Below are positions 4,280-23,204 of a stretch of DNA of 23,204 nt, piece after piece. Both the position numbers and the translations under genes were made by a program. How positions within the stretch are numbered: position 1 is the stretch's first letter; the number at the start of each line of letters is the position of its first letter. This stretch comes from a virus: positions 1 through 23,204 of IMG/VR virus record IMGVR_UViG_3300030419_001828; one strand, given 5' to 3'. The notes under the pieces were generated by a model. It did no database searches. It was not told where the DNA came from and saw only the letters and a program-made list of their open reading frames with translations.

Positions 4280-4295
4280 TGTTAATTAATTAACA
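4280..4295. promoter_or_regulatory. 16-base perfect palindrome, possible operator
   Basis: TGTTAATTAATTAACA is a perfect palindrome that overlaps the stop codon of the metallophosphoesterase gene and lies over the expected -33 region of the candidate early promoter. It has no T-tract, so it does not look like a terminator. An imperfect direct repeat beginning CTCTC (4255-4271 and 4273-4289, 18 bases apart) runs through the same region. These are the usual shapes of a dimeric repressor site, but AT-rich palindromes also arise by chance. Confidence 0.35.
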
Positions 4296-5008
4296 ATACC
4301 ATTCCAGCGACCGCCCTTTTTTAAGACCATTGGCAATAGTTTTGGTTGCCCATTTATAATGATTCCACAACCCAAAATTACTCTAGCACTATTTATCTTA
4401 TTGTATGCAAATGCTAGACTATCATCATTAATTAAGCAGCCTACCATCATGGACCAATGTAGAGACATGGGATTGGATGTATAAGTGATATTAAATTCCG
4501 TATGATAATGACCTTGAATCACACTCATCCCCATTTCCTTTGCCAATGTTAATCCATTTTTTTTCATACCATGAGTCATAAATAAACATTGACCATTGTT
4601 CATTTTATGTTTATAATCTGGGTACCATTTCCAGCCATCTCCAACTCCTAAAACTTCATTATAATCTCTCAGCATATAATTTGGAATGCCGTGTTTTTTT
4701 CCTCTCCTATATAACATGCTTCCATGATTGGAATGGACTAGAGTCATTTTTGGAAATAACGTCTCTAATTTCTTAAATACTTTACGGGCTTTTAATGTCT
4801 CATCGTGTTGAGTAGGTAGTGAGGTCTCAGAGTCGTGCATTGAGATTCCGTGAAAATCTGCCTCATCTCCAACATTGAAAATATGATGATTTGGATTGTT
4901 GTTTTTAATCTTATATTTTTTCTTAATTGCTTTTAAGAATTTTAGAGCATCCTCATGATGATAGGGTATATGTAAATCGGATATAATTAATATAATTTCC
5001 TCTTTCAT
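4286..5008 (-). CDS. Calcineurin-like metallophosphoesterase
   Basis: A 240-residue protein with the full two-metal phosphoesterase signature in order: D11-x-H13 (SDLH), G-D48 (GDEADF), N94-H95 (SNHGS), H146 (MTHG) and G-H167-x-H169 (GHYH). Such phage enzymes hydrolyse phosphodiester or phosphomonoester bonds and are often distant relatives of SbcD/Mre11-type nucleases or small phosphatases; the substrate is not readable from sequence. All metal ligands are present, so activity is expected. Its start overlaps the holin-like gene by ATGA, which makes it the last gene of the late series, directly before the early promoter region. Sitting with lysis genes rather than replication genes is a little odd. 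Confidence 0.85.
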   Translation of the reverse strand: MKEEIILIISDLHIPYHHEDALKFLKAIKKKYKIKNNNPNHHIFNVGDEADFHGISMHDSETSLPTQHDETLKARKVFKKLETLFPKMTLVHSNHGSMLYRRGKKHGIPNYMLRDYNEVLGVGDGWKWYPDYKHKMNNGQCLFMTHGMKKNGLTLAKEMGMSVIQGHYHTEFNITYTSNPMSLHWSMMVGCLINDDSLAFAYNKINSARVILGCGIIINGQPKLLPMVLKKGGRWNGIVN

Positions 5009-5403
5009 TTATCTTTTTTATTTGAACTTCCTCCGAAAAAAAAATCCACAATCGTGTTGACCTTAGCGGACATGGCTCCAAAGATTGTAGATATAAAACT
5101 GATTTCAAACTCTCCTAAATTAATTTCTCCTAATACAAAATGATTAAACATTATGTATGATAGTACAAAATAAGCAACTGTAAACGTAGTGGCTAAAACC
5201 TTTTGTATCATGTTATCATCTTGATACATAGTCCTAGCAGATTTGCGGTCCTCTACTTCTAGTCCAAACATTTCTTTTTCATGATTTTTAAATAGTTCCT
5301 CTAGTTTTCTTTTGGCCTCCATAGCCTCCTCCTTAGTAGTGACCACCTCATCTAAAATCTCAGAGGCATTTCCTACTAAATTTTTTATTATATTTTTTAT
5401 CAT
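5005..5403 (-). CDS. Holin-like membrane protein (3TM-holin type)
   Basis: A 132-residue protein with an amphipathic N-terminus, the short motif EVEDRKSAR (residues 49-57) that marks the 3TM-holin-type family, and hydrophobic membrane segments at about 68-90 and 100-122, then a short Lys-rich tail. Holins collect in the inner membrane and open it late in infection to release the endolysin. It is joined by ATGA overlaps to the endolysin gene before it and the phosphoesterase after it, the normal holin-endolysin pairing. Orientation and exact number of membrane spans are uncertain. Confidence 0.72.
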   Translation of the reverse strand: MIKNIIKNLVGNASEILDEVVTTKEEAMEAKRKLEELFKNHEKEMFGLEVEDRKSARTMYQDDNMIQKVLATTFTVAYFVLSYIMFNHFVLGEINLGEFEISFISTIFGAMSAKVNTIVDFFFGGSSNKKDK

Positions 5404-5867
5404 AATGATTTGTAATTATGGTACTCTCTATACTTTGTTTTATTATCATCATCCTTGTATGCTTCTAGTACCTGTTTTCTATTATTATCTAATTTATATG
5501 CAATATGAATCCACTTTCCACCAAACTCCCATATCATTTGGTCAAATTCTAAATCCAATTCCAATACAGCCTCAAAGATTAATTTATTATCCATTTTCCC
5601 ATCTCTAATTATAACTATGTCCGCAGCATTTCCTGTTTTGTGAGCGGAATTTCTAGCGCCACCAATTGCACGATTTAGAGCAGGAGACCTATAGCCGGAT
5701 GTAATTCTAATAGGACCCAATTTGTCCCTTACTTTTTGTAGTATGTTTTCTGTTAATAGTTTTAGATTATTTATAATATCTGGATTGGGACTATTATTTA
5801 TATTTTTTCTCAATGCCGTTTGCGAGAAACACATCTCATTGAGTGTAAAATTTTTACTGAGTCTCAT
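5400..5867 (-). CDS. Peptidase M15 endolysin (D-Ala carboxypeptidase-like)
   Basis: A 155-residue peptidase of the M15_3 type. The zinc site and fold markers are visible: ITSGYRSP (55-62), SAHKTGNAADI with H76 and D83, E114 in the QMIWEF strand, and H121 in WIHIAY. These enzymes cut peptidoglycan peptide bonds. The protein has no secretion signal or cell-wall-binding domain, so it would leave the cytoplasm through a holin, here encoded directly downstream with an ATGA overlap. Length is normal for the single-domain family. The role as phage endolysin is well supported by context. Confidence 0.9.
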   Translation of the reverse strand: MRLSKNFTLNEMCFSQTALRKNINNSPNPDIINNLKLLTENILQKVRDKLGPIRITSGYRSPALNRAIGGARNSAHKTGNAADIVIIRDGKMDNKLIFEAVLELDLEFDQMIWEFGGKWIHIAYKLDNNRKQVLEAYKDDDNKTKYREYHNYKSL

Positions 5868-7877: not shown

Positions 7878-8876
7878 TTATACTATTTTTATATATCCTC
7901 TACCATACAACCTCACGGCCGCATCTGTTGTACTTCTACACAAAACTGCAACTCCCTGTCCTGCAGTTAAATTATTAGTCCCAGTAATATCAAAAGTTTT
8001 AACATAATTTGTATTTAGTGTGTAAGTACCATCATTATCTGTATGAGTCATTTGTGATAAAGTTACATTTGAGGTTGAATTATTTAATAATGGGACTTTA
8101 CATATTTGAAACTCTAAGTCCGCTGTTTTATTAGAATAAAATGCAATTGTAATACTTGTAACAACACAATTTTGCGTCGCTATATATTCACAGGACCTCA
8201 ATGCAGTGCTATCAGTTTCAGAGCCAACGGATGTCCCTAAACTCAAATTATATGCAGAGCTAGAATACCAATTATTTAAACTCGCTAAATACCAGATATA
8301 GGCCGTACTCCCAGACCCTATAGGAGCCGTTGCTGTATGTTTGGTCTGGATATCTTGTTTTTTTACAATAAAGCTACCAGATGGAAAATTATCCTCTCCC
8401 TTTTGAAAATTAGTGGATGGGATTCTAATAGCTGTAGTGGTCGCAGTCACGTCTCTATCACATATTAATAATTTTGATTTAAACGTAATTGGATGATATA
8501 TATAAAAATAATCTCCAGCAATTAGTTTATAACTTGGAATCCCTGTCACGTGGATATCTATTCCAGTTACTGCTCCTGTTGTATTAATAGGCTCTGTTGT
8601 TCTGGCTATTGAGTTACTAAGTAAAAAGATATAAAAGGGATTTGATTGCCCCGCTCCCTGTGCTACATCATTTTGTACTGGGAAAGCTGTAGGAGTTGTA
8701 CCAGTTCCGGCCGGTGGCATGGCCGTCATTGGATTCATATACCTTTGTTTTTTATATGTAACAGAGTTTATCCTACCAACATCACTAATACTTTTAGATG
8801 GCATCCCAGATGATTGAGTAGATGGATGCTTTTTAAACTTTTTTTGTATGTTTATTTTTTTACTATACTTAACCAT
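7878..8876 (-). CDS. Putative tail fibre/receptor-binding protein
   Basis: A 332-residue protein rich in Ser, Thr, Asn and Gly, with a basic, low-complexity N-terminus (residues 1-70) and a beta-rich rest, the usual make-up of small phage fibre or receptor-binding proteins. Residues 235-330 form one Thr/Asn-rich beta-rich block ending in VRLYGRGYIKIV, a likely folded tip. No enzyme motif is seen. It overlaps the 875-residue tail-tip gene by 8 bases. Assignment rests on composition and on its place between the large tail-tip protein and the lysis block; the receptor is unknown. Confidence 0.5.
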   Translation of the reverse strand: MVKYSKKINIQKKFKKHPSTQSSGMPSKSISDVGRINSVTYKKQRYMNPMTAMPPAGTGTTPTAFPVQNDVAQGAGQSNPFYIFLLSNSIARTTEPINTTGAVTGIDIHVTGIPSYKLIAGDYFYIYHPITFKSKLLICDRDVTATTTAIRIPSTNFQKGEDNFPSGSFIVKKQDIQTKHTATAPIGSGSTAYIWYLASLNNWYSSSAYNLSLGTSVGSETDSTALRSCEYIATQNCVVTSITIAFYSNKTADLEFQICKVPLLNNSTSNVTLSQMTHTDNDGTYTLNTNYVKTFDITGTNNLTAGQGVAVLCRSTTDAAVRLYGRGYIKIV

Positions 8877-11496
8877 TGCTGCTATACGATTTATCGGTTA
8901 AAGCATTTTTGCTATAAGTGACACAATCCTCTACTACTATTTTCCATGCTCCAGTACCAGCTGTAAAAGTCCCTCCTGTAGGAATAAATGCTAAATTAGC
9001 GGATGCAGAGTTTTGATACCATTCGCCAGAGTTCCAATACAATAGATTAGCAAATCCAAATCTAGATAAATTAAAATTAGTATTTCTATCTACTATATTT
9101 AACTCTAGTTTTTGTTTTAATAAGTATCTATGTGCTAGACCCTGCTTAGCTCTTTTAATATGTAGTTTCATATCCTCATCTGCAGCCTGATGTATGGTCC
9201 TCCAGTCTTGAGTAGTTGGACCAGTAACAGCGCTCCCAGTATCATCTGCAGCTGTATGGATTCTAAATTGTGCCAAATAATCTCCTCCAAAACCCTCAGC
9301 TGTATCTACTTCTGGATATGGATTAAATTGTGGCTCATCTCCTATAATTATCTCTGGAGATTGTACGTCCTCATCACTGCATGTCCCATTTCCATTCTCC
9401 CACCATGCTATAGTATGATTAAAACTATCCGCTCCAGCCCATGCTCCCATTATATATACTCTTACATCTGAATAACTATACATAAAATGCACTCCTCTAT
9501 CATGACAATCTAACTCTCTATTTATAGTCCAGTCCTTACAACATACATAATGCTTATTGCCTCCATTCTCTACTACTCTATCCCTCTCTAGCGCAGTATA
9601 TAGATTTACTTCTGCTATTCTATTCCATCCATAATCTGCAGTATTAGATTCTCTATTCATTGGAATTTTGCCAGATACTATTTGAAATGTAGTAGTATTT
9701 TGTAATAAACCATTTGCGTAATAAGCGTCCCATAGTATTCCATCCCATGTATTAGATACATTAGTAACAGCTACAGAGTGCTCATTATAAACAGGAGCAA
9801 ACCATGTATATGGATTGTCGTCTGGGTCTGTATCAGAGGTGTCAGTTACATACCACATCATTTGACTCGCAGCATCTTGTCCCCATAATGCTATATCATT
9901 ATTATCTACAAATACAGTGCTAGGCCATGTAGCACCATAATTATACTTTAATCCTGCTCCTCCCGCTGTAGTCTCCATATCATATCCAGCATGATTATTA
10001 GAGTATGCGTTGGTCTCAGCACCTCCCAGCCATGAAACACTACCAAACAAAAATGCAAATCTAGCATCTCCCATCCAAAAATTTTGAGTTAAGGAGGCTC
10101 CTCCTCCAGTATCTACAGCCTCTGCTAGTGTTCTAATCATTAGACCCATTCTCGGAAAATGCCATCCCACGTCAACAGCTGTATACCAGTTTGTTGTACC
10201 AAATTGAAAATTATTTGCTGTCCAATACTCATGGCCACTATCATATCCTAATCCATTAGCAGTAACAGAATCTATTACGTCTGTTGTAACATTCCCTGTT
10301 ATCATGACCCTTTGCTGTGATACTTTATTGGCATTTAAAGTATATCCTATTGGAGACGCATCCTCTGTGCCGCTTAAATCTATAGATACGCTCTCGGTTG
10401 TTATTTGATTAGTTGTTCCATTTTCTACAGATGTACTACTAAAGGACACAGGTCCTAATACTAGATTGCTGAAAATACTATGTTCGTATATAGATTTATA
10501 CGATAATAAAGGAGGCATAAACATCTCTAAACTTCCAGAGGCTCTAGCTGATACATTTAATATAGATTGATTAAATGCATTATCATAAGCTAAAGCTACA
10601 TCGGTAGTAGTAACTTTACTATGATAAAAAATTAATTGAGTTGCATCGTAATTATCATTATTATTATTTCCATGATTTACTAAAGGAGATTGGATAAACC
10701 ACATTGGATTGGTGTCAATTCCAGAGACTTGATAATCCATCTGAGTAAAAAATATCCTTAATTGAAAAGCTGCCAGCACCTGCTCTAATACCTTATAATA
10801 GGACCACCATTCTCCATCATCATCCTTAAAACAGATTGCATTAACCTTAGTCAAAGCCAGAGGGTCCCGATTTACATTCTCTCTCCATGTAGCATCCCAT
10901 GAACTGCCTCCCAGCATTCCCTCATTATAATAAAATGGAGTATGACCTATATATGCAGTAGTATCATTATAATATGAAGCAATCAAAGTCAATGGAGATA
11001 AACATAATTTTATCAAATTCATCATACTCCTACTACCTCCATAAGCGTCATGGTCATAAGGTATATATTTTAATCTAGTAAGTCCATCTGTAGCCTTTAT
11101 ATTAATAATTCTATTTGGTGATGTGTCTTGTAAGCTCACTAAATCTCCTAATAAATAACCTACCCACCATAGACGATAAGCCCCACTATAATAATTATAA
11201 ATAGCCACAGAGAAATCATTTTCATTTCCAGTCGCCACAGCTTGTAAATCCGCAATAATTCCCTCTAGCGCTACACTCTCCAAAACCATATTAAAATCTA
11301 CGGAGGTTGTTTTTATAGGAGCTAGCATATCATCATCTCCTCCATCCATGTTCAATGTAAATCCATTGCCGGTACATTTAAACTCCGTAGCAGCCCCTCC
11401 ATAACTAGCAGAATCTATATTGATTTTCCATTTCTGTTCATTTCCAGAAGCGTCTACATTTTCACTATAAAACTCGCATGTATATTTGGTCGCCAT
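8869..11496 (-). CDS. Large tail-tip/baseplate protein
   Basis: An 875-residue protein that directly follows the tape measure gene (three bases between), where siphoviruses encode distal tail and tail-associated baseplate proteins. The N-terminal about 130 residues (beta-rich; ATEFKCTGNGFTLNMDGG, DFNMVLESVALEGI) resemble a tail-ring type domain; residues 230-290 contain a Trp/Tyr-rich block (DGEWWSYYKVLEQVLAAF) common to Bacteroidetes tail-tip proteins. The long remainder is Trp, Asn and Gly rich, probably beta-structured and surface exposed. It may combine distal-tail and adhesion roles in one chain. No peptidase motif was recognised. Confidence 0.6.
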   Translation of the reverse strand: MATKYTCEFYSENVDASGNEQKWKINIDSASYGGAATEFKCTGNGFTLNMDGGDDDMLAPIKTTSVDFNMVLESVALEGIIADLQAVATGNENDFSVAIYNYYSGAYRLWWVGYLLGDLVSLQDTSPNRIINIKATDGLTRLKYIPYDHDAYGGSRSMMNLIKLCLSPLTLIASYYNDTTAYIGHTPFYYNEGMLGGSSWDATWRENVNRDPLALTKVNAICFKDDDGEWWSYYKVLEQVLAAFQLRIFFTQMDYQVSGIDTNPMWFIQSPLVNHGNNNNDNYDATQLIFYHSKVTTTDVALAYDNAFNQSILNVSARASGSLEMFMPPLLSYKSIYEHSIFSNLVLGPVSFSSTSVENGTTNQITTESVSIDLSGTEDASPIGYTLNANKVSQQRVMITGNVTTDVIDSVTANGLGYDSGHEYWTANNFQFGTTNWYTAVDVGWHFPRMGLMIRTLAEAVDTGGGASLTQNFWMGDARFAFLFGSVSWLGGAETNAYSNNHAGYDMETTAGGAGLKYNYGATWPSTVFVDNNDIALWGQDAASQMMWYVTDTSDTDPDDNPYTWFAPVYNEHSVAVTNVSNTWDGILWDAYYANGLLQNTTTFQIVSGKIPMNRESNTADYGWNRIAEVNLYTALERDRVVENGGNKHYVCCKDWTINRELDCHDRGVHFMYSYSDVRVYIMGAWAGADSFNHTIAWWENGNGTCSDEDVQSPEIIIGDEPQFNPYPEVDTAEGFGGDYLAQFRIHTAADDTGSAVTGPTTQDWRTIHQAADEDMKLHIKRAKQGLAHRYLLKQKLELNIVDRNTNFNLSRFGFANLLYWNSGEWYQNSASANLAFIPTGGTFTAGTGAWKIVVEDCVTYSKNALTDKSYSSNG

Positions 11497-14120: not shown

Positions 14121-14477
14121 TTAATTTTTTAAATTTTTGTTCGCTTTTGCAATTAAATACTCAGTTTTTTTCTTGTCCGATTTCAGTTTTTTCACGTTGA
14201 TTTTTTTCTCCCAATCAAACTCAATTAAGTCCTTTAATTTTATTTGGTCCTGCCTTTTTCTATCCTTATTAATCAACGCAGTTGTTTGAAATCTCACTCG
14301 CTCCCACTCTGCTTTTTGTAACTCAAAATCATGCTCTCGCCGGCCTTGCAATTTCATTTGAAATAGTCTAGGAGTATAATCCCAAAACTCATCTGGACTC
14401 ATATTTAAATAACCTAAACCCAGCTCCAAAAGAATTTCAAAAGTTATAGGCTTCTCTATTTCTTCGCTTTCGCCGTC
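14121..14477 (-). CDS. Tail chaperone T-extension, made by -1 frameshift
   Basis: This frame has no proper start of its own. It opens in the -1 frame at the slippery site (14477-14483) and would be made only as the C-terminal part of a 227-residue G-T fusion: 109 residues of G, then 118 of T. The T part contains MSPDEFWDYTPRLFQMKL (T-domain opening), a long charged helix and FDWEKK near the end, matching gpGT-type chaperones that recruit tail tube subunits to the tape measure. The internal ATG at 14429 would drop the first 16 T residues, and is unlikely to be the main start. Confidence 0.75.
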   Translation of the reverse strand, partial: DGESEEIEKPITFEILLELGLGYLNMSPDEFWDYTPRLFQMKLQGRREHDFELQKAEWERVRFQTTALINKDRKRQDQIKLKDLIEFDWEKKINVKKLKSDKKKTEYLIAKANKNLKN

Positions 14478-14803
14478 TTTTTTTTTTCTTCCTCTGGATT
14501 CATTTTAGCCATTTGCTCCGAAAAAATCTCCATTGCTTCATTAAATATATCCATCCCCTCATCATCAATCCAATCCGCAATATCATCAGACGTATAATTA
14601 AAATCATCTTTGGATTTTCTCGCTCCATGCTTTAATCCTACATAAATAAGATTAATCGCATTTATAAGAGATAAGTTTTCTCCTACTCTTGCTAGGTCCT
14701 GTAATCCTAGTCCAGACATTTCGCACCATTGAGAGAGAGCTGCGAATCCAAAATGTAATGGTCGCATTTCTCCCCCTATAGCAATTTTTTTAAGTTCACT
14801 CAT
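14456..14803 (-). CDS. Tail assembly chaperone G
   Basis: A 115-residue helical protein (ATG at 14803; a TTG at 14821 would add six residues and is less likely). It begins MSELKKIAIGGEMRPLHFGF and ends in a Lys-rich tail. Tail assembly chaperones of the gpG type sit between tail tube and tape measure genes and, with a frameshifted GT form, keep the tape measure soluble during tail assembly. The frame ends in AAG ACG GCG AAA GCG AAG AAA TAG shortly after the slippery A-run, so most translation yields G alone. Confidence comes mainly from the frameshift layout. Confidence 0.8.
   Translation of the reverse strand: MSELKKIAIGGEMRPLHFGFAALSQWCEMSGLGLQDLARVGENLSLINAINLIYVGLKHGARKSKDDFNYTSDDIADWIDDEGMDIFNEAMEIFSEQMAKMNPEEEKKKTAKAKK
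14477..14483 (-). promoter_or_regulatory. -1 frameshift slippery site A AAA AAG
   Basis: The minus strand has a ten-A run followed by G (14487-14477), read in the G frame as GAA AAA AAA AAG. The heptamer A AAA AAG is the classic bacterial -1 slippery sequence. A -1 slip gives an open frame from here to 14121, while the -1 frame is closed by TAA a few codons upstream. G stops eight codons after the site. No strong downstream pseudoknot is obvious by eye, though a stem could exist. Confidence 0.75.
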
Positions 14804-14848: not shown

Positions 14849-15280
14849 TTATGCACTCGCTGCAGTTAGCGCTCCTGTCCCAGCTATGGATAGACTGTAC
14901 GTGGAAAATTCGCCCACGTTGGCATTTACACCAATTGATGTTATATAACCATATCCAGTATACTTTTTAGCTGAAGCTTGACCAGAGCCATCTCTAAACT
15001 GCACATAGATTTTTGTTCCCGCTTCTAGTGCAGCGATGCTAGTATCTCCACTAACAGTCTCGCCAGATGATGTAGTAAAAGCCTCACAGTCTAACGTCCA
15101 TGATTTTACTCCGTTTATAAATTCTTTTCTCCCAGAGGAGTCTTTATTTGTTACGTCTATAGTTTCTTGATTTACAGATAGAGTTCCTGTTGTTGCACCC
15201 GCTACTGCTGTAGGAGATGTACTACCAGATAAATCTATACTCAAAACTATAGCACTTCCTGTAATTGTATTAACAGCCAT
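14849..15280 (-). CDS. Tail tube protein, copy 2
   Basis: A 143-residue protein of the phage tail tube type: Thr/Ser/Gly-rich beta structure, the ETIDVTNKDSSGRKEFINGVKSW block (residues 38-60) typical of TP901-1-like major tail proteins, and a C-terminal YGYITSIGVNA and YSLSIAGTGALT. It is clearly related to the adjacent gene (15312-15791): VTNKDSSGRKEF aligns with VTDKSSLDKKEY, SWTLDCEAF with TWSVDAEVF, GYGYITS with GYGYITS, and SIAGTGAL with SITGTGAL. It is likely a structural tube subunit placed just before the chaperones. Which copy is more abundant is unknown. Confidence 0.85.
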   Translation of the reverse strand: MAVNTITGSAIVLSIDLSGSTSPTAVAGATTGTLSVNQETIDVTNKDSSGRKEFINGVKSWTLDCEAFTTSSGETVSGDTSIAALEAGTKIYVQFRDGSGQASAKKYTGYGYITSIGVNANVGEFSTYSLSIAGTGALTAASA

Positions 15281-15311
15281 TTTTATATATTTTTTTTAAA
15301 TTAAACCTTAT

Positions 15312-15791
15312 TTATGATGCAGCGTAGCTAAGCGCTCCTGTTCCAGTAATACTTACCGAATACGTCGCGCCATCTTCCGTCCCCCCAGTTGCTGAGAGAC
15401 TCGTTATATATCCATATCCGCTATAATTATTACCCCCTGTAGTTCCTGTAAATTTTACGAATACTCTACGAGGATAATCTGCTATAATAGGAGATACTGT
15501 TCCTGCTGCAACACTAATCCCCATTGCTGGAAGTGCCATACTAGCAAAGTCTACAGCTCCATCCTCATTATAAAATACCTCGGCATCTACGCTCCACGTT
15601 CTACTCAATCCACAATACTCCTTTTTATCTAGAGATGATTTGTCGGTCACTTCTGGAGCATCTACTGTAAGAGTAAGAGTACATGATGTAGCCGCAGCAA
15701 TTGCTGTAAGTACTGGAGTAGTACCATCAGCTGTATTAGTAGTATCATCTATACTTAGTACCATATTAGTACCATTAACCATTGTCGCCAT
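15312..15791 (-). CDS. Tail tube protein, copy 1
   Basis: A 159-residue tail tube paralogue of the gene at 14849-15280 (shared blocks VTDKSS, W-x-V-D-A-E, GYGYITS, GTGAL). It carries an insert around residues 82-105 (SMALPAMGISVAAGTVSPII) missing in the other copy. Both end in very similar GTGAL tails. Many siphoviruses encode one tube protein; two tandem copies may form a mixed tube, one may be a minor or tip subunit, or one may be decaying. Both are intact and share similar codon use, so both look functional. Confidence 0.85.
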   Translation of the reverse strand: MATMVNGTNMVLSIDDTTNTADGTTPVLTAIAAATSCTLTLTVDAPEVTDKSSLDKKEYCGLSRTWSVDAEVFYNEDGAVDFASMALPAMGISVAAGTVSPIIADYPRRVFVKFTGTTGGNNYSGYGYITSLSATGGTEDGATYSVSITGTGALSYAAS

Positions 15792-15809
15792 TTTTTATTA
15801 TTTTAAAAA

Positions 15810-15980
15810 TTAATCACTTTTTTTTTTACTTTCTTTTTTTGTTGTTTTTTTAATGAGGTTAAATTCATCCTCTATTACTCCCTCATTTAAGAGATTCATA
15901 TAACCATCTCTATCTACTGGTCCATAAAAATCTCCCTCCTTATGAGGGAATCTATCTTTTATCAATTTTACTTTATACAT
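15810..15980 (-). CDS. Small hypothetical protein, 56 residues
   Basis: ATG at 15980-15978, TAA at 15812-15810. The product starts MYKVKLIKDRFPHKEG and ends in a Lys-rich tail (IKKTTKKESKKKSD). It lies between the tail-terminator-lectin genes and the tube genes, with 4 and 18 bases to its neighbours, on the same strand. The segment GPVDRDGYMNLLNEGVIEDE looks like a short folded part with a positively charged tail. Small genes at this position in siphoviruses are common, often of unknown function. I do not recognise the family. Confidence 0.6.
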   Translation of the reverse strand: MYKVKLIKDRFPHKEGDFYGPVDRDGYMNLLNEGVIEDEFNLIKKTTKKESKKKSD

Positions 15981-15984
15981 ATCT

Positions 15985-17412
15985 TTAATTTAATGATTCG
16001 TATTTATTATATATATAATCTTTTATTTTCTTATATATTATATCTGTAGGCTGAAAGGGTGCTGTATCATCTCCTGTACTAGACTCTGGTACAAATAACA
16101 GCATCTCATAAACCAAAAATCCACTGCTAGAATCTTGGTCACTTCCTATACTTGCAAAGGTAAGAGAATTAGAATAAGTATCACTATTACCCGCAAAAGA
16201 ATTATCCTTAATTATTTGCCCTGTTGTTAGTTTTGGATTGTAATTACTATTAAAATACTCAAACCATCCAGAGTTATTTTTAGTACCTCCTGTTTGCGCT
16301 TTATTTCCTCCTACTGATAATGCTAAAAAATGGATAGAAGCATCCCAGTAATTAGTGGAGTCTGTTGTAGCTTTTAGTGTAATAGTTCTACTGGAGTAAG
16401 TAGTCAAATCTCCGCAAGGATTAAATTGTATTTTAATATCTAGTCCCTGCTTTTCGTGATTAATAGACATATTTCCCTCCTCAGATGCAGAGACACTATT
16501 TCCAGATATATAATTTTGGCCCCCTGTTTTGTCTGGTTTATATACAAAAATTATTAAACCTCCATAGGCTAGAGATATTGGCTCATAGGCTGTGCCTGTA
16601 AATGTCCTAAAATTTTTAGTAGTACTAAACTCACAATATGCCGGAGTTCCACTATTCCATGTAGGTTTATCCGCATCCTCACATCTTAAATATGGATGAT
16701 ACTCTATTATATTATCAGTAGGAGTTCTTTGAGCATAATAATTTCCTATTTTATTATACAAAAATTGTACTAGAGATGAGTCTGCAATTGAGGTCCTTTG
16801 CACACTAGATATACCAGAAAAAAGTAGAGCAGAGGTGCCTACACTTTTAACCTGTGTAAAGTCTAATGATAAAATTAAAGGATTTGTAATGCTGCTAATA
16901 GTAGTCGCTGTATCAGCTTTGCCCTTACTATAAGAAAACTGGTCTAAATTCCAATAAAAATACACGTCATAATCTATGGCCTTTGTATATAAAAATAGCT
17001 CATCGTAATACTCATCTTTCTCATCAGAAAAAAATATATTTGATATGTCTATATTTTCTATTAAACTATGATTATTCCCATATTCGTCTTGATAACCTTG
17101 CACAACGTCTAATCCTATAGACGTAAAATCTCTATAATTATCTAATACATTTTTTATCTCATCAGATATTTTAGAGGTGGTTTTATAACTCTTAGAAACA
17201 ACTTGAATGCTAAGCTCACATTTAATAAGATTAGGTGTCTTATCTTTTGAGATTTGTAAATCTATCATTTGATGATACAATACAGCTGGATATGATGATG
17301 CATCCGATAGAGAATACTTTGCATTTTGAGGCAATATAATTGGATATATCCCCCCTGTTGCTAAATCAGATATTTGACTTTTTAAGATTGTATGTATAGC
17401 TTTCCCAATCAT
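15985..17412 (-). CDS. Tail-terminator-like protein fused to LamG/ConA-like domain, copy 2
   Basis: A 475-residue protein of two parts. Residues 1-150 follow a tail completion/terminator fold (MIGKAIHTILKSQISD, then IYPIILPQNAKYS and long alternating beta/helix up to ~150), at the genome position of tail terminators (after gp10-like, before tube). Residues ~185-475 are beta-rich, with a C-terminal helix-like VYEMLLFVPES...IIYKKIKDYIYNKY pattern typical of LamG or concanavalin-A-like domains. The paralogue at 17413-18933 shares both halves. The fusion places a possible carbohydrate-binding domain at the head-tail neck. Domain calls are by pattern, not by search. Confidence 0.55.
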   Translation of the reverse strand: MIGKAIHTILKSQISDLATGGIYPIILPQNAKYSLSDASSYPAVLYHQMIDLQISKDKTPNLIKCELSIQVVSKSYKTTSKISDEIKNVLDNYRDFTSIGLDVVQGYQDEYGNNHSLIENIDISNIFFSDEKDEYYDELFLYTKAIDYDVYFYWNLDQFSYSKGKADTATTISSITNPLILSLDFTQVKSVGTSALLFSGISSVQRTSIADSSLVQFLYNKIGNYYAQRTPTDNIIEYHPYLRCEDADKPTWNSGTPAYCEFSTTKNFRTFTGTAYEPISLAYGGLIIFVYKPDKTGGQNYISGNSVSASEEGNMSINHEKQGLDIKIQFNPCGDLTTYSSRTITLKATTDSTNYWDASIHFLALSVGGNKAQTGGTKNNSGWFEYFNSNYNPKLTTGQIIKDNSFAGNSDTYSNSLTFASIGSDQDSSSGFLVYEMLLFVPESSTGDDTAPFQPTDIIYKKIKDYIYNKYESLN

Positions 17413-18933
17413 TTAATGCGGCTTATATGTATTTGATAATTTATGTTTCTCTAAAATGTTATTTTTTATCTCATTATATTCTGCACTACCAAAAGGAATT
17501 TTTTTAGGTACTAATACTAAATCATAAATATGCAATTCATCATTTAAATTTATAGTCCCCGCTCCATTAGTGTCATAACTTGTTCTATTACTATGTATAG
17601 TCCCAAAATTCATAAAATACTCGTTCCATGTAGTTGAGGCTGTAGCTTGAAATGTGTTAAATCGCTGACCATCTGAAGCCCAATTTTTAGTCCTGTATGA
17701 TGATGTGACTAAATCAGTATACCCCTCTAATTTTGTTGTAGATGTTCTGCTGATACTAAATGCAAAAAAAACAGGCTCCGCAAATCTTAAATCTGGATTA
17801 GTACCAGTTGAGGATTGTACTGTAAGTAAGGTCCCAGACTTTTCGCTCTCCCCTCCAGCTCCATCATCCTCCTTTGCTGTAAAGAAAAAAGTATAAAATA
17901 TATCACTTCCTACAATAGCACTTTTTACTCCTATCCCTCCAGCCGGCAAAGATGTTGCCGAATCTTTAAATAAAATAGATGCCCCTTTATCAGCAACATG
18001 AGAGTCTGGCAATGTGATTACACAAAAAAAAGTAAGTTCCTTATATGTTCTATTAAATCCTAGAGATGAATTTACTGGAGTTAAAAACTTACTAGACCCA
18101 AACTCTAAATAGTTTAATTTATTGAATTTAGGTGGATTTAAAGAGCTTTCTTTTAAAATAGGTCTATTTGTATTACTTGTGCCTGTAGCGTCATTAAAAA
18201 CGGCGTATTCATTATTTAAACTCAATGTGGCCGTTGAATACTCTACATTGTCACTATCACTATAAACACAGGGACTCCAGATATAATTGACTCCATCATT
18301 TATTGATATTGGTTGGTCATACAATGGATTGCCCCCAGAGCTAGTAGTAGCCATTAAATTTAAATCATCTAATTTTAAATAAAAATCTGCTCCCCAATTT
18401 GCAATATCATTGATGTAAGTTAATTTAAAATTAATAGTGTTTCTATAGTTTTCTAATACATCATCAAAACTCTCAAAAGAATTTTGAAAAAATAAATCTA
18501 CAATTTGAAGGCCTGCAACGTATTGGATAGGACCAGTACAAGCGGGAGCGTAATTACCATAGCGCCCATGTGCTGGCGGTGTTCCTGTATACAATGGATT
18601 GCCATAACCTATAGAAGCTGAATCATTGCTATTATAAGAGTTTATATATCTATGTAAATTATTTATGATTAAATTAGATATTTTAGCCATTTGAGCATAA
18701 CTATCCGCAATCACATCAACCTCTATATCAATACTATTTCCTAAAGCTCTAAGAGATTTTATATTTGATGGAGTTATATTTGTAATAGTATATACGATAG
18801 CTGGCAGTCCATAATTTTGAGGCAATACGTTTGGAAAAACATTATCTCCTACTATATCATAAACCTCCCTTTGTGGATTATTAGACTGGTCGCCATATCC
18901 TACCAATAAATATCGTATTGCTTGTCCTACCAT
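17413..18933 (-). CDS. Tail-terminator-like protein fused to LamG/ConA-like domain, copy 1
   Basis: A 506-residue paralogue of the following gene (no bases between them). Residues 1-170 are tail-terminator-like: MVGQAIRYLL, DNVFPNVLPQNYGLPAIVYTI (aligned with IYPIILPQ and SSYPAVLYHQ in the other copy), IEVDVIADSYAQMAKIS. The second part begins near 195 and has the ConA-like opening KLNYLEFGSSKFLTPV (~275-290), strand-rich centre, and ending LNDELHIYDLVLVPKK and helix. Compared with the other copy it has an insert around 106-130 (YTGTPPAHGRYGNYAP). The gene overlaps the gp10-like gene by 7 bases. Terminators are usually under 200 residues, so the fused part is unusual. Confidence 0.55.
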   Translation of the reverse strand: MVGQAIRYLLVGYGDQSNNPQREVYDIVGDNVFPNVLPQNYGLPAIVYTITNITPSNIKSLRALGNSIDIEVDVIADSYAQMAKISNLIINNLHRYINSYNSNDSASIGYGNPLYTGTPPAHGRYGNYAPACTGPIQYVAGLQIVDLFFQNSFESFDDVLENYRNTINFKLTYINDIANWGADFYLKLDDLNLMATTSSGGNPLYDQPISINDGVNYIWSPCVYSDSDNVEYSTATLSLNNEYAVFNDATGTSNTNRPILKESSLNPPKFNKLNYLEFGSSKFLTPVNSSLGFNRTYKELTFFCVITLPDSHVADKGASILFKDSATSLPAGGIGVKSAIVGSDIFYTFFFTAKEDDGAGGESEKSGTLLTVQSSTGTNPDLRFAEPVFFAFSISRTSTTKLEGYTDLVTSSYRTKNWASDGQRFNTFQATASTTWNEYFMNFGTIHSNRTSYDTNGAGTINLNDELHIYDLVLVPKKIPFGSAEYNEIKNNILEKHKLSNTYKPH

Positions 18934-19415
18934 TTTATCAACTTATTAGCTTCATTTAATATATTGTCTAGTACTTCTCTTCGCTTATTAAGTCTGGCCC
19001 TTTCTATAAAATGTAAAGATTGATGATTTCGCGTGGATTTTCCTCCCCTCACTTTATGAGGTTGTAATGCTAGATGAGCGTACCATCCATCATTTTTGGA
19101 GCTCGTTGCTCGCTTCCCATATCTCGGACCTACAAAAATCCCTTTTTTACCAGCAAAAATACCTACAGACCTTTTTAAATTTCCAGACTTATAACTCTCT
19201 CTCTCCTTACCATAATAATACCAGTTTTTTTTGCGCTTATTAGCATTATTTTTATATAGTGGAGTCAAATTTCGCATCTCCTTGCGTAATGGTTTGGCCG
19301 CTTTTCTTGCTATTTTTTTTGTGACCCTATCTCCAAATCTAGCACGGATAGTATCTAACGACCTTTTTATCTGCGTTAGTTGAGTTTTGTCTATAAGAAA
19401 TATATTTCTGGTCAT
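18927..19415 (-). CDS. HK97 gp10-like neck/tail protein
   Basis: A 162-residue, strongly basic protein of the HK97 gp10 type: helical start (residues 8-50, with KKIARKAAKPLRKEMRNLTP, the family's A-x2-L...TP pattern), a central Tyr/Lys-rich part (SGNLKRSVGIF, IFVGPRYG at 80-100), YAHLALQPHK, and a C-terminal helix. Members are found between the stopper and tail terminator genes and are thought to help tail completion. It overlaps its upstream neighbour by one base. The family call is good; the exact role in the virion is less defined. Confidence 0.85.
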   Translation of the reverse strand: MTRNIFLIDKTQLTQIKRSLDTIRARFGDRVTKKIARKAAKPLRKEMRNLTPLYKNNANKRKKNWYYYGKERESYKSGNLKRSVGIFAGKKGIFVGPRYGKRATSSKNDGWYAHLALQPHKVRGGKSTRNHQSLHFIERARLNKRREVLDNILNEANKLIKW

Positions 19416-19777
19416 TAATCATTGTCTGTAAAATAACATCTTATTAAAATTCCCATTCCCCTCCCATTATATTCCATACTAGATATATTCCAATACTTAT
19501 TAAGATATTTGATTGTAAAATGTTCCTCTGGAGATATGGTTGCACTATTGACCTCCAAATCATTATCCCACCTCACTAAAAAAGCAACCTTAGATTTTGC
19601 CACTATGGTATCATCCATTACTTTTTCATTTCCAGTCGCTGGGACTATCTGTGCCCAAATTGTTTTCAACAATGTCCTACTCTGTGATATTTCTCCATAG
19701 GCATTCTGTGTATTAGTATAAGAATAAACCTCAATAGGAGTATCTAATCTCCCAGCTTTTAGAAATTCTTTTTTCAT
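19415..19777 (-). CDS. Head-tail adaptor/stopper (SPP1 gp16-like)
   Basis: A 120-residue beta-rich protein with the family's order: AGRLDTPIEVYSYT near the start, the YGEISQSRTLLKTIWAQIVP strand block (27-46), VRWDNDLEV (68-76) and IKYLNKYWNISSMEY (89-103), all typical of the phage head-tail joining family. It closes the capsid after DNA packaging, below the connector ring. One-base overlap with both the gp6-like gene and the gp10-like gene. Length is normal for the family. Confidence 0.87.
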   Translation of the reverse strand: MKKEFLKAGRLDTPIEVYSYTNTQNAYGEISQSRTLLKTIWAQIVPATGNEKVMDDTIVAKSKVAFLVRWDNDLEVNSATISPEEHFTIKYLNKYWNISSMEYNGRGMGILIRCYFTDND

Positions 19778-20509: not shown

Positions 20510-21736
20510 TTAAGCATTAGCAATCTTAACAAATGCTGTTGCATTGTCTACTGCATCTCCATCTACTAGAGACGTACAAACTAATGAGCCAACACCTTGT
20601 CTAGACTTAGTGTATGGGTCAAAAAGCACATCTAAGCCACCGAATTGGCAGATGTGTACTTTTGAAAAATCTCCTAGTAAATAATTAGTCCCAGTACCAG
20701 CGTCATATTGGCCACAATTAGAAGTAACAAATGCAAAATATCCTGCTAAAGTTCTATCCGCATTGTCCCAGATTGGAGAGACACTAGACACCTGCGCTAA
20801 AGTTTTTACCTCAGCTAAAGCACCACCATCTAAAATCCATGCCATTCTTGCTCCTAATAAATTCACGTTGTTATCAATTAAAGTTGCCTCCATGTTTAAA
20901 ATCTCAGCAGCTGTAGGAGTAGCAGCACCTACAGATTGAGTAGTAGCATCTAAGAAAATTGAAGCTGGCGCGTTACTTACGTCCGCGTTTCCTTTCAATA
21001 AAGCAGCCTCTAATGTAGCAGCAATACTAGCAGCCATGTTTCTACGAATAGCAGCCTCTAGTCCAGCATTTTGAGTCAGTGCCTCAGCTGACATATCTAC
21101 AACAGAAATTAATTTCTTTGGAGTTAATGTCAATGATGATGTACTACCAGATGCATCTGTATCAGCACCAGGGTCCTCAGTAGTCCAGCTGGATGTGATT
21201 CCACTTACAATCGGAAATTTTTGGTCATTAACACCAGAGTAAAAATTAGCTCCAGCAGATGCTAATACTAAATTAGCCTCTAGTTGGTCGGTAAATGACT
21301 GGACATCAGTACCAGCAGATGCAGCTGTAGTAACAGCAGCTCTATGTTCTAGTACAGATGATGGAATAGCTATCCCTCTAAACATTTGATTGGGATGCAT
21401 CATTCGTGCCTCTTGGTCCATTTCCTTAACTAATCCTGTTAAATTTCCAGATACTGATTGTTTCATAGCGTCTTGAAATGAATAGTCTCTAAGTTCTTTA
21501 ACTTGTTTGGTTGGTTTAGATGCTGAAATGTTAGCGGCAATAGACTTATTCAATTCCTCTTGTCTTTCAGCAATTGTTATTTTTTTGTCTATAGATTCAA
21601 TTTCAGTATTAAAACCATCCCACTCTTTTTGCTCATCCTCTGTGATATCTCTATCCTCAGATTTAGCAAGATTGATGATAGCCTCCATATTTTCAACAAT
21701 AGAAGCTCTTTCGTCTTTTAATTTAAATGAGTTCAT
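20510..21736 (-). CDS. HK97-fold major capsid protein
   Basis: A 408-residue major capsid protein. Residues 1-105 are a charged helical delta domain (scaffold-like, removed by the protease); the rest matches the HK97 gp5 family: VSGITSSWTTEDPGADTDAS (N-arm/E-loop region), LTPKKLISVVDMSAEAL, the helix EAAIRRNMAASIAATLEAALLKG (228-250) and the P- and A-domain order ending VCTSLVDGDAVDNATAFVKI. It builds the head shell, directly downstream of the protease gene (one base between) and followed by a terminator. The exact cleavage site is not marked by a clear motif. Confidence 0.93.
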   Translation of the reverse strand: MNSFKLKDERASIVENMEAIINLAKSEDRDITEDEQKEWDGFNTEIESIDKKITIAERQEELNKSIAANISASKPTKQVKELRDYSFQDAMKQSVSGNLTGLVKEMDQEARMMHPNQMFRGIAIPSSVLEHRAAVTTAASAGTDVQSFTDQLEANLVLASAGANFYSGVNDQKFPIVSGITSSWTTEDPGADTDASGSTSSLTLTPKKLISVVDMSAEALTQNAGLEAAIRRNMAASIAATLEAALLKGNADVSNAPASIFLDATTQSVGAATPTAAEILNMEATLIDNNVNLLGARMAWILDGGALAEVKTLAQVSSVSPIWDNADRTLAGYFAFVTSNCGQYDAGTGTNYLLGDFSKVHICQFGGLDVLFDPYTKSRQGVGSLVCTSLVDGDAVDNATAFVKIANA

Positions 21737-21737
21737 T

Positions 21738-22361
21738 TTAATCTTGATTTTTTAATTTTAATAATTCTATTTTTTTTTCTAATAAATTCCTTTTTATTAG
21801 GTCCTTTTCCTCTTGTTTGTTTTGTTCTTTTTCTAGTTCTGTTTTATATTTTAAAAAACTACGTTCTGCAATGGTCGCCTCTGGATAAGCCGGATAGGTT
21901 ACTAAACTCACGTCTAATAATCTAGATACTTTTTTAATTGTTCTAATAGTATTGCCCTCCTCATCTTGCGTCCAATCATCCTCCTCTACTATAAATCCAA
22001 AACTATTCTGCGTTATATCTCCCCTATCTAGAGATACCATTAAATCATTTCCATAGGATGTATTAGGGATATTTACAGAGTACCTTAATCCCTTTTCATC
22101 TACAGATAGAGATAGTGTTCCTGCTGTAGTTCGCCCCAAAATATAATTTGAGTCATGATTAAATAAACAGCGAGTATCATTTTCTAATACATCATCAAAA
22201 GCTCTCTCATCTATTCTCTCTCTGAATCCGCCCAGATTTTCAGATAGTGAATTAAATACACTACCATAACCTACTACCTCTCTAGATTCAGCATTCTCTA
22301 TTCTTAACTCTGAGGCTTCAAAATTTCTAACCTCTATATTTTCTGGTTTATTCTTTTTCAT
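21738..22361 (-). CDS. Prohead protease (HK97 gp4 family)
   Basis: A 207-residue serine protease of the phage prohead family. VGYGSVFNSLS (30-40), H69 in LFNHD, GRTTAGTLSLSVDEKGLRYSVNIP (76-99) and the catalytic S120 in ITQNSFGF mark the fold; VSRLLDVSLVTYPAYPEA (about 148-165) is the usual C-terminal motif of the core. After about residue 170 there is a Lys/Glu-rich coiled tail, perhaps a scaffold-binding part removed on maturation. It cuts delta domains from the capsid protein. The start at 22361 overlaps the portal gene by 14 bases. Confidence 0.93.
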   Translation of the reverse strand: MKKNKPENIEVRNFEASELRIENAESREVVGYGSVFNSLSENLGGFRERIDERAFDDVLENDTRCLFNHDSNYILGRTTAGTLSLSVDEKGLRYSVNIPNTSYGNDLMVSLDRGDITQNSFGFIVEEDDWTQDEEGNTIRTIKKVSRLLDVSLVTYPAYPEATIAERSFLKYKTELEKEQNKQEEKDLIKRNLLEKKIELLKLKNQD

Positions 22362-23204
22362 TGTTATTATTATTTTCGCCTAATTGGCCTAGGTTAAGTG
22401 GGACAAAAAATTCGTCCCCATTTTCTATTTTATTTAAATCCTCCATAGTTCTTATTTCGTTTGGAGATAGTGCCCCTATTTCAAATAATTTCCTATAGTA
22501 ATCTGCTCTACTATCAGCGTCCCCTCTCAATAGTTCTTTTGTTTGGAATTTAAAAAAGTGAGTAGATAATTCTCTATCCGCTAATAATTTCCTGTTCAAT
22601 TCCTGCTCCCAGTTTACTAAATATGGAGTAAGAGAATACTTTGCAAATTCTAGAGACTGCTGTTCTATATTATTAAATGATGATTTTGATAAATCATTTA
22701 TGAGATGATTTGGGACACGGAAAATTCTAGCAATTTCCTCCACACTAAATCTCCTAGTCTCAATGAACTGAGCGTCTGCTAATGGCATTCCTATTGGTTT
22801 GAATTTCACACCCTCCTCCAAAATTGCCGTTTGGTGGCTATTGTGAATCCCAGAAAACCGATTATTCCATGAATCTCGCAGTCTGTTTGCAGCATCATCT
22901 GAGAGTCTAGATGGGTGCTCTAATATCCCAGATAGATTTGCACCACGTCCAAAAAAATTAGCTCCAAATTCCTGCGACGCGCTTGCAATTCCTAATGCCT
23001 CAGAAGCTACTCTAATTGGAGACTTACCTACTATTCCATCATAACTAAATCCTACAATATGTAGGACCTCCTTATCCGATAACACGCCCGAATCCTTAAC
23101 AGTATAGTAAATCAATCCATCCTCATCCGATTTAAACGGCTGTACATTTTCTGGATTTAATATCTCTAATTCAAAAGGTCGTGCGGCTCCATTTCTTTTG
23201 ATTC
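22348..23204 (-). CDS. Portal protein, HK97 family (5' end outside window)
   Basis: The frame is open to the window edge, so the N-terminal part of the gene is missing; 285 codons are seen. The first visible residues, IKRNGAARPFELEILNPENV, are the usual R-N-G-x-x-R-P-x-E-L-x-x-L-x-P-x-x-V block; next LHIVGFSYDGIVGKSPI, NFFGRGANLSGIL, ILEEGVKFKPIGM, EEIARIFRVPNHLIND and GALSPNEIRTMEDL follow the HK97 portal order. The TTG at 23115 is internal, not a start. The portal is the dodecameric ring through which DNA is packed, and is next to terminase in most such phages. Confidence 0.95.
   Translation of the reverse strand, partial: IKRNGAARPFELEILNPENVQPFKSDEDGLIYYTVKDSGVLSDKEVLHIVGFSYDGIVGKSPIRVASEALGIASASQEFGANFFGRGANLSGILEHPSRLSDDAANRLRDSWNNRFSGIHNSHQTAILEEGVKFKPIGMPLADAQFIETRRFSVEEIARIFRVPNHLINDLSKSSFNNIEQQSLEFAKYSLTPYLVNWEQELNRKLLADRELSTHFFKFQTKELLRGDADSRADYYRKLFEIGALSPNEIRTMEDLNKIENGDEFFVPLNLGQLGENNNNNEKE

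Follow-up and report, generated by a model that had tools for sequence, protein, structure and literature searches.

What fills the tail terminator slot in a phage structural module when two long genes stand where one short gene is usual? A terminator is the ring that stops growth of the tail tube and joins the tail to the stopper of the head. The window, by which we mean the whole virus record of 23,204 bases analysed here, has its structural module on the minus strand, and the initial annotation read two neighbouring ORFs of 475 and 506 aa in that module as paralogous terminators, each fused to a LamG/ConA-like domain; coordinates and lengths are exactly as it gave them. We call the two genes TerA and TerB, and list them here with the genes around them.

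22348-23202, minus strand: portal
19415-19777, minus strand: head closure protein (Hc1, stopper-like); PF05521, E=1.5e-13; phrog_25
18927-19415, minus strand: HK97-gp10-like neck/tail completion protein; PF04883, E=1.2e-4; phrog_5
17413-18933, minus strand: TerB, 506 aa; terminator domain (residues ~1-178) and predicted jelly-roll (ConA/LamG-like) domain (~186-500)
15985-17412, minus strand: TerA, 475 aa; terminator domain (~1-156) and predicted jelly-roll domain (~157-475)
15312-15791, minus strand: MTP1, tail tube paralogue 1; PF06199, E=5.9e-6; phrog_1407
14849-15280, minus strand: MTP2, tail tube paralogue 2; PF06199, E=1.9e-17; phrog_1407

The order of genes on the minus strand is portal, prohead protease, capsid, Ad1, head closure Hc1, HK97-gp10-like, TerB, TerA, MTP1, MTP2, the tail assembly chaperone ORFs and the tape measure; this looks like the structural module of a siphophage, and we recognised no sheath gene in it. 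TerB and TerA directly adjoin each other in the slot between the HK97-gp10-like gene and the two Phage_tail_2 tube genes, and the start of TerB overlaps the upstream HK97-gp10-like gene by 7 bp. Starts that abut or overlap by a few bases are also found at the Ter genes of most relatives, an arrangement consistent with coupled expression. A small Lys-rich ORF of 52-77 aa (MYKVKLIKDR...YGPVD..., ~15800-15984, minus strand) that is kept in nearly all relatives, including those with a single fused terminator, lies between the terminator and the first tube gene. At ~14456-14490 (minus strand) a run of ten A residues precedes the end of TAC1, and the TAC2 frame is open through the run at -1, making this a candidate programmed frameshift of the lambda G/GT type. 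The major capsid protein (20510-21736, minus strand) is only 79% identical to that of L001, most other genes being 96-100% identical, which suggests exchange of the capsid gene or fast change in it. An 875-aa tail protein that has no family match follows the tape measure (8869-11496, minus strand), and metallophosphoesterase-like and endolysin-like genes (4286-5008 and 5400-5867, minus strand) lie beside the structural module.

Sequence profile, predicted fold and gene position identify TerB and TerA as diverged copies of one siphophage protein, the tail terminator. Their proposed paralogy is borne out by BLASTP over the N-terminal ~200 residues (E=1e-6) and by hhalign of the two N-domains (98.8%, E=5.6e-17), which align from end to end with no segment lost. 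TerB matches the "tail terminator" family phrog_347 (E=4.4e-7), as do 20 of 22 TerB homologues; TerA itself has no direct PHROG match, and the same family is matched by one of its 26 family members (E=4.2e-6), so that by profile TerA is placed among the terminators only through its homology to TerB and through that one member. The phrog_347 profile has a length of 394, which might have meant that long members are already known; we discounted it, since other PHROG profiles too greatly exceed their proteins in length and gapped columns are the likely cause. A PDB sequence search with the TerA and TerB family profiles gave nothing usable. AlphaFold2 models were built from alignments of 22 (TerB) and 26 (TerA) sequences, with pLDDT 79.7 and pTM 0.83 for TerB and pLDDT 80.9 and pTM 0.83 for TerA. 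In Foldseek searches of the PDB with both models, solved terminators lead, foremost that of phiXa (9lbn_K; TMt 0.72 and 0.71), with T5 p142, lambda gpU, GTA and Bxb1 among the further terminator matches (E=1e-5 for TerB, E=6e-5 to 5e-4 for TerA; prob 1.00 for 9lbn_K, T5 p142, gpU and GTA); query ranges are not given for these matches, and their assignment to the N-domains comes from the target length (117-170), the alignments of ~150-190 columns and the sequence evidence. Wherever a contig of the clade spans the slot, the position between neck completion and tube genes is the same, and the claim of terminator-like N-domains at the correct genome position is thus backed by profile, fold and synteny together. 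Two copies, of 475 and 506 aa, depart from the short, single-copy state that is usual for terminators and that does not define them.

What follows the N-domain in each protein is a segment of ~320 aa which in the DSSP assignments of the models is mostly beta and ends in a strand and then a helix, just the extra domain with closing strand and helix that had been described from the sequence. Foldseek matches the TerB model to a BFVD "Concanavalin A-like lectin/glucanases superfamily" protein (E=9e-7), and PDB fold matches of the C-domains include CBM40, a PL7 lyase and the tailspike of cyanopodophage Pan3 (9vyh_p, to TerA, E=1.6e-4, TMt 0.51). The predicted models thus have a jelly-roll beta sandwich of the ConA type, matched less strongly than the terminator fold, since its similarity to structures that have been solved is modest (TMt at most 0.51, with large rmsd). 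The ConA/LamG-like assignment stands at the level of fold, but not as a sequence family: PF13385 Laminin_G_3 gave no match at a genome-level E of up to 10 in the window or in L139, L166, L168, L010, L011 and L034, nor did a Pfam scan of the TerA and TerB homologues find LamG. We therefore use the term ConA-like for the fold and leave the domain outside the LamG family. A direct comparison of the two C-domains gives only weak similarity (26%, E=7e-4). The C-domain of the single-copy fused terminators found in some relatives (see below) aligns with that of TerB at 98.3% (E=1.6e-14) and with that of TerA at 93.0% (E=3.3e-7), against a maximum of 4.4% in 60 column shuffles and less than 1% in reversed controls; in these alignments both C-domains are clearly homologous to it.

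Counting the window, 23 contigs carry the TerB-TerA pair (~19 of them distinct at <90% identity, with 19 distinct sequences each for TerB and TerA). TerB comes before TerA in all of them, and no contig of the clade with coverage of this slot lacks the pair. A wider search through the tube and portal genes found relatives of the same synteny in simpler states. Most of L136-L165, and also L038, combine one tube gene with a short, unfused, single terminator (133-140 aa; examples are L136, L141, L145, L148, L163, L038 and gut phage MT835917); the clade of L139 and L166-L170 has one fused terminator of 397-412 aa, with a C-terminal domain, and one tube gene; and the clade of the window has two fused terminators and two tube genes. 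In L154 and L049 a single terminator (short in L154) goes with two tube genes. Among 50,697 phage records tblastn found no fused relative, the only match being a weak one to the unfused MT835917. A scan of genome contigs with TerA gave no match, and one with the tube protein gave a single Cloacimonadota contig.

In trees, TerA, TerB, the single-fused and the short terminators each form one group ("Short_L016" and "Short_L017" of the first tree are TerA fragments from contig ends and were removed). The homology of the C-domains of TerA, TerB and the single-fused proteins traces all three to one fusion event, and the series of short, single-fused and paired forms indicates that the terminator gained its domain once and that the fused gene was then duplicated. 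The lineage would thus have begun with a short terminator that acquired a jelly-roll domain, followed by duplication of the fused gene and, in the same lineage, of the tube gene. The tree prefers to group TerB with the single-fused proteins (99/86); a TerA+TerB clade is not rejected (p-AU 0.107), long branches are present, and the terminator may have been duplicated either ahead of the divergence from the single-fused clade or later. MTP1 and MTP2 are sister clades (95/93) that lie outside the tube genes of the single-fused clade. The tandem MTP1/MTP2 genes (14849-15791, minus strand), a duplication that the initial annotation of the terminators left unmentioned, are each a conserved clade in all relatives. 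L154 and L049 seem to have had separate tube duplications, and their two tube genes beside one terminator show that tube and terminator duplications are not obligatorily linked.

Divergence was compared among ten contigs, the genes being linked. Mean pairwise identity is 0.55 for the N- and 0.47 for the C-domain of TerB, and 0.52 and 0.48 for those of TerA, values comparable to those of MCP (0.52), Ne1 (0.47) and TMP (0.49) and above that of the 875-aa tail protein (0.41). Among these ten contigs and linked genes, the four Ter segments are correlated in their distances, at r 0.68-0.83 with one another and 0.62-0.76 with Hc1, as against 0.33-0.50 with MTP1 and about -0.1 with the 875-aa tail protein; TerA and TerB co-diverge more with each other than with the tube or portal genes. 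This pattern suggests evolution of the lectin-fold domains together with the neck, and not the swapping that a receptor-binding module of the tail tip undergoes. Within TerA, identity is highest at residues 351-400 (0.66-0.80) and 451-475 (0.75) and lowest at 201-275 (0.20-0.25), in the first half of the C-domain.

How the two proteins are arranged in the virion can be approached from their terminator identity, which would put both at the neck. In the reading that we prefer overall, and to which we give about an even chance, TerA and TerB would make one mixed six-membered ring capping a tube of MTP1 and MTP2, and their C-terminal jelly rolls would sit outside the ring as a collar at the head-tail junction, where they would act as accessory glycan binders in reversible attachment to host or environmental polysaccharide. 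Two points weakly favour a mixed ring: the clade has a duplicated tube gene as well, and in T5 a terminator hexamer works on a pseudo-hexameric tube (PMC11784142). That tube and terminator are both alternating two-gene (A/B) pseudo-hexamers, the terminator ring being an adhesin collar with two lectin specificities, we think doubtful. Two stacked homohexamers, TerA capping the tube and TerB sitting on TerA and docking to the stopper, with two tiers of jelly rolls, are somewhat unlikely: TerA and TerB are distinct, ancient, non-homogenised paralogues with different conservation profiles, and their fixed gene order, TerB on the head side and TerA on the tube side, would match the order of such rings, but the tube duplication in the same clade fits an alternating ring equally well or better and the N-domains have kept their full length relative to each other. 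The disparity in phrog_347 matches between the two families would agree with only one of the proteins being the working terminator, the N-domain of the other having been recruited as a tail-completion protein or neck-fibre anchor; this too we consider unlikely, since TerA is still terminator-folded by Foldseek (T5 p142, gpU, GTA) and a gp10/Z-like tail completion gene is present separately.

ConA-like folds most often bind carbohydrate, and the neck collar of C-domains, on a mixed or a stacked ring, would probably be an accessory glycan-binding device; the lectin activity and reversible attachment that the initial annotation proposed, like the outward orientation of the jelly rolls and the composition of the ring, we infer from the models and the locus. 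The C-domains might instead be structural decorations that brace capsid against tail, form a collar or add stability, the jelly roll serving as a protein-protein module and not as a glycan binder. We lean against this role and still regard it as a real possibility, since the two most conserved stretches of TerA exceed its terminator domain in conservation, the C-domains co-diverge with neck proteins and, unlike the 875-aa tail protein, give no sign of swapping, and the LamG profile finds no match in them. The usual carbohydrate binding of such folds speaks against it, however, as do the poorly conserved residues 201-275 of TerA, which are as expected of an exposed variable face, and the short unfused relatives, which manage with no C-domain at all. 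Since the PDB matches include PL7 alginate lyases for TerB (E=2e-3) and an arabinofuranosidase for TerA, the C-domain might also be an enzyme, such as a polysaccharide lyase of PL7 type that cuts capsule at the neck, but CBM40 and tailspike folds match equally. The catalytic motifs of PL7 enzymes are Q[IV]H, RxE[LV]R and YxKxGxYxQ; all are absent from TerA and TerB, which disfavours an enzyme further and makes it highly improbable.

The terminator ring at the head-tail joint, small and rule-bound, is here loaded with domains of predicted lectin fold, and the preserved stages (short, fused, fused and duplicated) form an ordered series in which adhesive functions would be moving onto core parts of the virion. 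Phages with TerA and TerB also allow a test of heteromeric terminator and tube rings. A literature search found no terminator-lectin fusion in siphophages, an absence that is not proof, and what appears new is the arrangement of known parts, namely a lectin-fold domain on each copy of a duplicated terminator in an uncultured phage lineage. TerA and TerB share N-domain fold, profile and gene position with the siphophage terminators lambda gpU, SPP1 gp17 and T5 p142 (phrog_347, PF11367), but the well-studied members are short and single copy, whereas here there are two, each with a C-terminal domain of ~320 aa. Larger terminators with extra domains do occur, as in contractile systems; T4 gp15 and PVC16 carry an extra C-terminal domain (PMC11784142); that domain either makes contact with the sheath or repeats the terminator fold, whereas the one of TerA and TerB is a predicted jelly roll. 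The duplicated tube domain of T5 pb6, which forms a C3/pseudo-C6 ring under the terminator hexamer (PMC11784142, PMC9022992), resembles the tube duplication found here, but it lies within one protein, whereas here the tube genes are separate and the terminator is duplicated too. Carbohydrate-binding modules are known from the neck passage proteins, tube extensions and Dit of the lactococcal 936 and P335 phages (PMC6669499, PMC10747895), and two of those of 936 phages, one from the tail and one from the neck, have been shown to bind (PMC6669499). These phages thus carry sugar-binding modules on neck or tube and not only at the tip, as, by predicted fold, would the phages described here; their modules, however, are on separate neck fibres, the TpeX tube extension or an evolved Dit, whereas in TerA and TerB the terminator itself bears the domain.
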